Assembly (NCBI RefSeq): GCF_014349105.1
Contig: NZ_JACSJI010000002.1
Location: forward strand, 186,001 to 250,000
Source: Caulobacter sp. 17J80-11
GTDB lineage: Bacteria; Pseudomonadota; Alphaproteobacteria; Caulobacterales; Caulobacteraceae
Reading direction: 5' to 3'
Length of the DNA: 64,000 bases
Shown: positions 47,548 to 49,605 of the stretch, piece after piece
Numbering within the stretch: the stretch's first letter is position 1
Layout: the number at the start of each line of letters is the position of its first letter
Made by a program: the position numbers and the translations under genes
Notes under the pieces: generated by a model
Database searches by the model: none
Seen by the model: the letters and a program-made list of their open reading frames with translations, nothing else
What the model was told of the DNA's origin: nothing

Positions 47548-47602
47548 GAGCGAGAGTCGTTCGCGAAGCCCCTGCGGCGTTTCGCGAAATCCCGTTCGGT
47601 AA
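47548..47602. repeat. Short element resembling 39087-39130
   Basis: GCGAGAGTCGTTCGCGAA (from 47548) and CGCGAAATCCCGTTCGGTAA (from 47583). The palindrome TTCGCGAA occurs twice here. Lies after mmsB and before hemA. Confidence 0.35.
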
Positions 47603-47610
47603 GTAGTTGT

Positions 47611-47643
47611 CCTAGGTGGACGCCAGCCGTCCCCTAGGTGGAC
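47611..47643 (+). promoter_or_regulatory. Direct repeats CCTAGGTGGAC upstream of hemA
   Basis: CCTAGGTGGAC occurs at 47611-47621 and 47633-47643, 22 bases apart (two turns of helix). Each holds the palindrome CCTAGG. They lie about 90 bases before the hemA start and look like a tandem operator for a regulator I cannot name. Confidence 0.5.
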
Positions 47644-47688
47644 ACTGCGGTCGTGCTCGTGCGAGAAGCCGGCCCAGTTTGGACTCGG

Positions 47689-47716
47689 GGGAGCTGTCCC
47701 GTCGCGGACAGTTCCC
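47689..47716 (+). promoter_or_regulatory. 11-bp hairpin just before the hemA ribosome binding site
   Basis: GGGAGCTGTCC (47689-47699) pairs with GGACAGTTCCC (47706-47716), one G-T pair, 6-base loop. The ribosome binding site GAGGA starts five bases later. Could be an mRNA structure or an inverted-repeat operator. Confidence 0.5.
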
Positions 47717-47733
47717 GGGTTGAGGATGTCGCG

Positions 47734-48957
47734 ATGGACTACAAGGCCGCTTTCCGGGCCGCCGTCGAAAAGGTTCGGTCTGAGGGGCGCTACCGCGTGT
47801 TCGCCGACCTCAAGCGCAAGCGGGGCCAGTTCCCGCGGGCGACGTGGACTCGCGCCGACGGCACCTCCCGCGACGTGACGGTCTGGTGCTCCAACGACTA
47901 CCTCGGCATGGGCCAGCACCCGGCGGTGCTGGAGGCCATGCACTCCGCCCTGGAAGAGTCCGGCGCCGGCTCCGGCGGCACCCGCAACATCTCCGGCACC
48001 ACCCGCTACCACGTCGAGCTCGAGGCCGAGCTGGCCGACCTGCACGGCAAGGAAGCGGCCCTGCTGTTCACCTCGGGCTACGTGGCCAACGAGGCGGCTC
48101 TGTCGACCCTAGCCAAGATCCTGCCGGGCCTGATCATCTTCTCCGACGCGCTGAACCACGCCTCCATGATCGCCGGCATCCGGCACGGCGGCTGTGAGAA
48201 GCACGTCTTCCGCCACAACGACCTCGAGCACCTCGAAGAGCTGCTGGCCGCCGCGCCGGTGAACTCGCCGAAGATCGTGGCCTTCGAGTCGGTCTATTCT
48301 ATGGACGGCGACATCGCCGACCTGGCGGGCACCATCGCGCTGGCCAAGAAGTACGGCGCCCTGACCTATCTGGACGAAGTCCACGCGGTGGGCATGTACG
48401 GCGCCCGCGGCGCCGGCGTGGCCGAGCGCGACGGCGTGATGGACCAGATCGACATCGTCGAGGGCACGCTGGGCAAGGCCTTCGGCCTGGTCGGCGGCTA
48501 CATCGCCGGCGACGCCGACCTGGTCGACGCCATTCGCCTGTGGGCCTCGGGCTTCATCTTCACCACCTCTCTGCCCCCGGTGGTGGCCGCGGGGGCGACC
48601 GCCTCGATCCGCTGGCTGAAGAACAACCCGCAGATCCGCGACGCCCACCAGGAGCGCGCCACCACCCTGAAGCGGCTGTTCGCCGAGGCCGGCCTGCCGG
48701 TCATGCCCTCGGTCAGCCACATCGTGCCGGTGTTCGTGGGTGATCCCGTGCACTGTAAGATGGTTTCGGACTTCCTGCTGGAAGAGCACGGCGTCTACGT
48801 GCAGCCGATCAACTATCCGACCGTGCCCAAGGGCACCGAGCGCCTGCGCTTCACGCCGTCGCCCGGACACGACGACGGCATGATGGCCGAGCTGGTGGGC
48901 GCCATGGACGCGCTGTGGACCCGCTGCAATGTCAAACGGACGCGCATCGCCGCCTGA
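47734..48957 (+). CDS. hemA: 5-Aminolevulinate synthase
   Basis: Condenses glycine and succinyl-CoA to 5-aminolevulinate with loss of CO2 (Shemin route), the first step to haem. 407 residues, the family's length. [62 protein letters not shown], and the PLP-binding Lys248 in EGTLGKAFG, the same number as in well-studied rhodobacterial enzymes. Start ATG 47734 follows GAGGA. Confidence 0.98.
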
Positions 48958-49120: not shown

Positions 49121-49146
49121 AAAGGGCCCCGGTCGGGGCCCTTTTT
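49121..49146. terminator. Bidirectional intrinsic terminator
   Basis: AAAGGGCCCC (49121-49130) and GGGGCCCTTT (49135-49144) around a 4-base loop, running on to TTTTT; the A run on the left gives a T run on the other strand. Serves hemA-DUF6898 (plus) and the MucR gene (minus). Confidence 0.88.
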
Positions 49147-49167: not shown

Positions 49168-49605
49168 TCAGCCGACCCGCCGGCGCACGCCCTTGCCCAG
49201 GCCGATCTGCTTGGCGAAGTCGGACCGGCGCGCGGCGTAGGCCGGGGCGACCATGGGGTAGTCGGGCGGCAGGTTCCATTTCCGCCGGTAGTCTTCCGGG
49301 GTCATGTCGTATTTGGAGCGCAGGTAGCGCTTCAGCATCTTCAGTTTCTTGCCGTCCTCCAGGCAGACGATGTGGTCGTTCTGGACGGACTTGGAGACCG
49401 GAACCGCGGGCTTCTGCTTCTCCAGCGGGCGCGGGGCCTCGATCGGTTCGCCCAGCCGCGTCAGCGTCTGGTGCACCGAATGGATCAGTTCCGGAATGGC
49501 CTGCGGCTGAAGCGGGTTCTGCGTGACGTACGCAGAAACGACCTCCGCGCTCAGGCGCAGCAAGTCCTGGCGGCGTTCAGCCTCGATCTCGCTATGCAAA
49601 TTCAT
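49168..49605 (-). CDS. MucR/Ros-family transcriptional regulator with degenerate zinc finger
   Basis: 145 residues. N-terminal helical oligomerisation part (LLRLSAEVVSAYVTQNPLQP) and the family's DNA-binding domain: VCLEDGKKLKMLKRYLRSKY, MTPEDYRRKWNLPPDYPMVA, SDFAKQIGLGKG. The Ros zinc ligands Cys-x2-Cys and His-x-His are Cys-x2-Asp and Tyr/Tyr here; only the first Cys remains. Some family members are known to fold without zinc. Likely a global H-NS-like silencer or cell-cycle regulator. Confidence 0.9.
   Translation of the reverse strand: MNLHSEIEAERRQDLLRLSAEVVSAYVTQNPLQPQAIPELIHSVHQTLTRLGEPIEAPRPLEKQKPAVPVSKSVQNDHIVCLEDGKKLKMLKRYLRSKYDMTPEDYRRKWNLPPDYPMVAPAYAARRSDFAKQIGLGKGVRRRVG

Follow-up and report, generated by a model that had tools for sequence, protein, structure and literature searches.

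The window, by which we mean the whole 64-kb stretch of DNA that was analyzed, contains the 5-aminolevulinate synthase gene hemA. The original prediction had described the DNA in front of this gene as a control region of many parts, and this is borne out by box, -35/-10-like and tandem-box elements that lie there together with two direct repeats and a hairpin. The following features were assigned:

47560 to 47567, plus strand: box A, TTCGCGAA, the first tandem box, at -79 from the -35
47581 to 47588, plus strand: box B, TTCGCGAA, the second tandem box, exactly 21 bp past box A
47600 to 47615, plus strand: predicted FixJ box TAAGTAGTTGTCCTAG, from a matrix trained on fixK/fixL sites; overlaps the first repeat
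47611 to 47621, plus strand: first repeat CCTAGGTGGAC, covering the right half of the predicted FixJ box and a TGGAC that may be a former -35-like element
47622 to 47643, plus strand: apparent insertion of 22 bp, or two turns of the helix, whose last part is the second repeat; accompanied by shifted boxes
47633 to 47643, plus strand: second repeat CCTAGGTGGAC, whose TGGAC is the start of the predicted -35
47639 to 47644, plus strand: predicted -35 TGGACA, a conserved TRGACW at a fixed gap
47663 to 47668, plus strand: predicted -10-like GAGAAG within TGCGAGAAG, at the position of the relatives' conserved A-rich core, with an 18-bp spacer
47689 to 47716, plus strand: hairpin in the 5' leader, 11 pairs including one G-U, 6-nt loop
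47734 to 48957, plus strand: hemA, 5-aminolevulinate synthase (TIGR01821, E 5.5e-202)

Both sequence elements on which the prediction had been built were recovered. An exact search located the two perfect 11-base copies of CCTAGGTGGAC (47611-47621 and 47633-47643), which lie 22 bp apart from start to start. The hairpin said to precede the ribosome binding site consists of the arms GGGAGCTGTCC (47689-47699) and GGACAGTTCCC (47706-47716) around a loop at 47700-47705, and its 3' end is followed by GAGGA (47722-47726) and the hemA ATG at 47734. For the segment from 47600 to 47760, folding gave a z of -1.89 with equal or better folding in 6 of 200 shuffles. A genome search for the paired motif had also been proposed; in the 3.8-Mb genome, no exact copy of CCTAGGTGGAC was found beyond the two upstream of hemA. 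Nearby exact 11-mer repeats as such are not rare in this GC-rich window, where 17 pairs lie 11-60 bp apart; a set of 40 shuffles, of two types, gave 0-9. In 16 of these 17 pairs the spacing can be divided by three, as expected within codons, the hemA pair (22) being the sole exception.

For comparison, hemA upstream regions were collected from 61 of 80 named loci (L009-L069) and from 80 stretches of same-family genomes, yielding 142 together with the window; the other 19 named loci (L070-L088) are more distant and were left out. Dropping 20 that were identical over the last 150 bases reduced the set to 122 upstream regions. HemA matches at E 1e-150 were present in 200 of 219 family genomes, and some genomes (G225, G151, G180 (genus g3) and others) have two or three matches at this level or better. 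The closest relative is Caulobacter sp. 17J65-9 (L009), whose HemA is 98% identical to that of the window and which matches it at 125 of the last 130 bases 5' of the gene; G001, another genome of the genus, is identical to the window over the 300 bases 5' of hemA. Within the 122 regions, the exact repeat pair is confined to the window and L009, i.e. to this genus. Imperfect pairs with 1-3 mismatches in each copy and a distance of 14 bp were found in 15 other upstream regions, all Caulobacter-like.

A core promoter could be predicted from the comparison. In 87 of the 122 upstream regions, a TRGACW lies at -130 to -40 relative to the start codon; it is followed by YGY-NAWAW at a 17-bp gap in 55 cases and at an 18-bp gap in 10, while none were found at any other gap from 11 to 22. 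This is a sigma-70-type geometry of 17-18 bp, and therefore TGGACA at 47639 is predicted to be the -35 and GAGAAG a -10-like element. The window core itself falls outside the 65 pattern matches because it has a G (GAGA) where the pattern wants A/T, and it is poorer than most of the relatives' cores; the sister lineage L149 has an identical GTGCGAGAAG core at a 17-bp spacer. A textbook sigma-70 consensus scan did not find the promoter, and the -35/-10 assignment given here is a prediction based on conservation.

TRGACA might instead be the -10 of a class II FixK-activated promoter, with the GC-rich dyad behind it forming a hairpin at the mRNA 5' end. This was considered since a FixK box stands at class II distance in one lineage: in Phenylobacterium-like sequences (L037, L057-L060, L064 and, differing at one position, L062), the distance from the end of TTGACGCAGATCAA to TAGACW is 22 bp, which we take to be class II geometry. 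Some species (L040, L050 and L049) have a strong dyad around the A-rich core, which is striking by eye as an RNA hairpin. However, its stems barely exceed those of shuffled sequences in length, with a mean of 3.90 versus 3.24 pairs over 48 rows, the window row being anchored one base off. Most relatives have TGGACA, which is without the key A at position 2 of a -10, and the fixed 17-18 bp gap to the -10-like core suits a -35. Further, no FixK box (TTGA-N6-TCAA) is present upstream of hemA in the window, there being no TTGA between 47532 and 47638, and FixK was not found in the genome. We consider this reading quite unlikely and retain TGGACA as the predicted -35.

The published FixJ site of S. 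meliloti is TAAGTAATTTCCCTTA, and SELEX consensi for FixJ are GTAGTTTCCC and GTAMGTAG (PMC4999443). The presence of TAAGTAATTTCCCTTA upstream of fixK on S. meliloti pSymA was confirmed. Boxes of this type were found 5' of fixK in eight of nine Caulobacteraceae loci with fixK beside fixLJ, the exception being L130, and also upstream of fixL in the window's own genome. A weight matrix was built from nine distinct fixK/fixL-promoter sites, none of them from hemA; these sites were picked for likeness to the published one, making the matrix blind to hemA and not to that site. Across the 64-kb window, the matrix gives a single match of at least 9 bits, at 47600-47615. This box, TAAGTAGTTGTCCTAG, scores 10.6 bits and has 11 of 16 letters in common with TAAGTAATTTCCCTTA, and together with the preceding base it contains GTAAGTAG (47599-47606), which matches the SELEX consensus GTAMGTAG. 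When the window's upstream region was shuffled 100 times (mononucleotide shuffling), 10.6 bits were attained in 3 cases (p ca. 0.03); taken alone, the candidate box of the window is thus modest. The L009 box at the same place scores 14.6 bits.

Among the 122 upstream regions, the matrix gave 44 matches of at least 8 bits, 33 in register with the promoter and 11 elsewhere, leaving 89 regions without an in-register box. In 29 of the 33 the box lies on the plus strand at -18/-17 from the -35, in two it lies there on the minus strand, and in the window and L009 it lies at -39. Judged from the sequences, seven of the out-of-register matches, at -114 to -118 in relatives, are codons of the upstream dehydrogenase gene; the other four (-70, +42, -44 and +133) were set aside as out of register. 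In-register boxes were found in 22 of 57 upstream regions from FixJ-encoding genomes and in 0 of 25 from genomes lacking FixJ, with 40 regions having no FixJ status; the call was made from a match at E 1e-50 (for this genus by a separate FixJ search), and the genomes are related, so that these counts are inflated and do not represent independent events. None of the genus g6 hemA upstream regions has an in-register box.

These results bear on the simplest explanation, namely a plain constitutive promoter with neutral repeats and a chance likeness to FixJ sites. Chance does produce close 11-mer repeats, and the window box by itself reaches only p ca. 0.03. In-register boxes nevertheless recur across several genera and are absent from all 25 upstream regions of FixJ-lacking genomes, the window has a single match to the matrix at 9 bits or more, and the displacements of the boxes are close to whole helical turns, all of which makes a constitutive promoter unlikely. 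We see FixJ as the most likely main regulator of the hemA control region. In favour of this, hemA of C. crescentus is reported to be upregulated by FixLJ (PMC7078487). Against it, in the comparative study PMC4999443, as far as the available text goes, conserved FixJ sites in Caulobacterales are given only at fixK, and the FixK regulon described for this order names hemN, not hemA. We recognized no report of a FixJ site at hemA in the accessible parts of the open literature, a scope that most subscription papers lie outside of.

A further conserved element is formed by the tandem boxes. Pairs of TTSRCGMA at spacing 21 with at least 14 of 16 letters matching were found in 35 of 122 hemA upstream regions compared with 2 of 2440 shuffles, a contrast that is partly post hoc since the pattern was drawn from the same sequences and some species are closely related. 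The spacing peaks sharply at 21, with 20 as the runner-up (8 upstream regions). In 27 of the 35 the pair starts at -57/-58 from the -35, and the remaining starts are at -46/-47 (4), -79 (2, the window and L009), -89 (1, L018) and -22 (1, with a weak anchor). Leaving the -22 case apart, the displacements amount to some -11, +22 and +32 bp and hence lie near whole helical turns, as would be expected of an activator confined to one face of the DNA; by a rough estimate, three such shifts would arise by chance about 2 times in 100. Direct repeats of 21 bp are, we presume, reminiscent of AraC-type regulators. SpdR was tried as the tandem-box factor and rejected, its CTGCGAC-N5-GTCGCGG motif (PMC4830024) being dissimilar to the TTCRCGAA boxes. 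A scan of the family for the tandem pair yielded matches in 57 of 119 genomes, with control matches in some as well, chiefly in genus g14. The matches that could be tied to hemA are those in G000, G001 and G020 (by coordinates) and G071 (by sequence); these are the annotated ones, and no regulon emerged from the scan. G000 and G001 each have the pair at the hemA promoter, which is matched on both strands as the boxes are palindromic, and at one other place. In the Phenylobacterium-like sequences named above, the second tandem box is itself the Fnr/FixK-type TTGACGCAGATCAA (TTGACGTAGATCAA in L062), and their upstream regions contain no FixJ matrix match of at least 8 bits (L037 being represented by its duplicate L192).

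The repeats can be understood from the position of these boxes. In L149 the order is TTCACGAA, C, TAAGGGGTTTCCCTA, CG and TGGACA. The window shows a corresponding order followed by 22 further bases that end in the second CCTAGGTGGAC. The FixJ box is found at -39 in the window and L009, whereas it abuts the -35 (-17/-18) in relatives that have it, and the tandem boxes are found at -79 instead of the usual -57/-58. As both sets of boxes are shifted by ca. 22 bp, the repeat pair can be read as marking what looks like an insertion of 22 bp, from which the present -35 came. Tandem duplication is a plausible but unproven origin of this insertion, the two 22-base units showing hardly any agreement outside the 11 identical bases.

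The original prediction had treated the tandem CCTAGGTGGAC copies as an operator matching none that could be named, in which case they would be half-sites of a dedicated hemA regulator. Their perfect retention in the window and L009 despite a few differing bases between and beside them, their spacing of two helical turns (22 bp) and the imperfect 14-bp pairs in 15 Caulobacter-like upstream regions speak for such a regulator. The exact pair is, however, confined to 2 of 122 upstream regions, in genomes too alike for conservation to count much, and the imperfect pair of the relatives is spaced differently and falls on the FixJ box (its left half) and the -35. In the window, the second TGGACA corresponds to the relatives' -35 and the first copy lies at the edge of the FixJ box. 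We therefore reject an operator of paired repeats as the main explanation, holding it very unlikely, and lack of conservation, which had been named in advance as evidence against the repeats, largely undoes the paired-repeat idea even as the region around them proves conserved. The motif does have a namesake, the FixJ site, given what the imperfect pair of the relatives coincides with, and our verdict is that the repeat pair reflects an altered spacing, at genus level, within a promoter of FixJ type. L018 offers an independent counterpart of the 22-bp displacement, with two extra 16-bp copies (GTTTCCGAGGTATGGG) adjoining the FixJ box and the tandem boxes lying 32 bp (three turns) further out.

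Control could also be exerted mainly by the leader hairpin, either as an RNA switch or as a stem gating hemA translation, which would be compatible with a FixJ promoter. The window's own stem is strong, and stems can be drawn between promoter and start codon in many relatives. In genus g6 the leader stems covary, with an alifold energy of -21.3 compared with -14.6 for shuffled columns and 0 of 100 shuffles as low, computed from 23 of 25 sequences after two had been dropped once the alignment was seen. The same analysis of genus g22 with the window, using 26 of 35 sequences (nine dropped after the alignment was seen), gave no clear signal, 10 of 100 shuffles being as low. The stability of single leaders is ordinary, with a mean z of -0.2 over the 91 of 122 upstream regions that have GAC at the anchor and -1.45 for the window. 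Moreover, Rfam gave no match in the region at the gathering threshold or at E up to 1, and the window's Shine-Dalgarno sequence lies outside the stem. The hairpin may affect translation or stability; we do not think that it is the main switch, a role we regard as improbable.

We then return to FixJ as the preferred regulator and to the composition of its circuit in this genus. The two genomes of the genus, G000 and G001, both encode FixL and FixJ. In G000 the FixJ gene is at C24:78260-78865 with fixL adjoining, and each protein is ca. 51% identical to its S. meliloti counterpart. FixK was not found in G000 or G001 at E 1e-5, while the same search was positive in seven of seven other genomes. 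A scan for Crp-family HTH proteins, through which Fnr was covered as well, returned one remote protein in G000, sharing 24-27% identity with FixK, and listed none corresponding to it for G001; a FixK/Fnr orthologue was thus not found in the genus by these searches. FixK, which normally serves as the intermediary in the FixL-FixJ oxygen circuit, seems to have been lost here.

A candidate second target is ccoN, upstream of which the FixJ-like box TCCGTACTTTCCCTTA (12.3 bits) is present at C19:19923-19938 in G000 and likewise, at equal distance, in G001. No FixK box (TTGM-N6-TCAA) was found upstream of ccoN in either genome. Nine other ccoN loci showed no FixJ match of at least 9 bits, a FixK-type box in five cases and neither in four; 2 of 13 genomes had no ccoN, and the low-scoring ccoN-like L269-L271 were left out of this comparison. 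A degenerate consensus over the hemA, ccoN and fixL sites is matched at four places in G000 and six in G001, three of them in each genome being these sites, with one control match in each. As the consensus was drawn to include those three sites, only the scarcity of further matches is informative. Given that no FixK is detectable and that ccoN has a FixJ-like box and no FixK box, FixJ probably acts directly on both hemA and ccoN.

Taken together, we assign a rough probability of 0.6 to the reading that the region is the hemA promoter and that phosphorylated FixJ probably activates it when oxygen is low. On losing its oxygen, the haem-based sensor FixL would phosphorylate FixJ, which would then bind TAAGTAGTTGTCCTAG (47600-47615), some two helical turns upstream of where the box lies in the relatives that have it and on the same DNA face. 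Bound FixJ would aid RNA polymerase at the predicted -35 TGGACA (47639) and -10 GAGAAG (47663), which would also set the transcription start. The working -35 would come from the second repeat, and the first would represent the right FixJ half-site and an earlier -35-like hexamer. A second activator would probably act on the tandem TTCGCGAA boxes (47560 and 47581). With FixK apparently lost in the genus, FixJ would act directly on hemA and, via a like box, on ccoN (cbb3 oxidase). Of the signals originally suggested (oxygen, iron or haem), oxygen is the likely one, acting via FixL-FixJ; in the main text of the available papers on iron and IscR (PMC3751524, PMC11475020), hemA does not appear. We would put below even odds, and offer tentatively, the fuller scenario in which the FixK layer was dropped, FixJ became direct for hemA and the high-affinity oxidase, and a second, tandem-TTCRCGAA activator is present, the distance of its sites to the promoter evolving only by whole turns.

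The proposed arrangement resembles the FixJ-activated fixK promoters of S. meliloti and Caulobacterales in having a box of the TARG-N8-CCTTA type that precedes the presumed start by a few helical turns, in the presence of FixL/FixJ in the genome and in the like box 5' of fixL. It differs from them in that the target is hemA, not a regulator, in a genus without detected FixK, and in that the box overlaps the first 11-bp repeat two turns beyond the Caulobacter hemA position. FnrL/FixK-controlled hemA promoters (Rhodobacter sphaeroides, rhizobia) likewise place ALA synthase under oxygen control via an upstream activator site. A hemA row with TTGATccttATCAA is given in PMC2908626, and hemA is among the FnrN/FixK targets in other orders in PMC4999443. 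The window differs from these promoters in lacking a FixK/Fnr box, and its genome in having no detected FixK. Under the fuller, tentative scenario, a haem-based oxygen sensor would drive the synthesis of its own cofactor in one step. The main reading offers a mechanism, with a name and open to testing, by which oxygen may govern the first haem-synthesis step in Caulobacter relatives; it proposes a direct FixJ target beyond fixK and points to what may be a naturally shortened oxygen-sensing cascade. The analysis further brings to light the tandem TTCRCGAA boxes as an additional conserved hemA element, and the displaced boxes offer a small natural experiment on the helical phasing of activator sites.

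On the other side of hemA, ca. 170 bases past its stop codon, a GC-rich hairpin followed by a T run (49124-49146) has by eye the look of an intrinsic terminator. A gene for a ROS/MucR-family regulator (49168-49605, minus strand; PF05443, E 2e-48) lies just 3' of hemA on the opposite strand.
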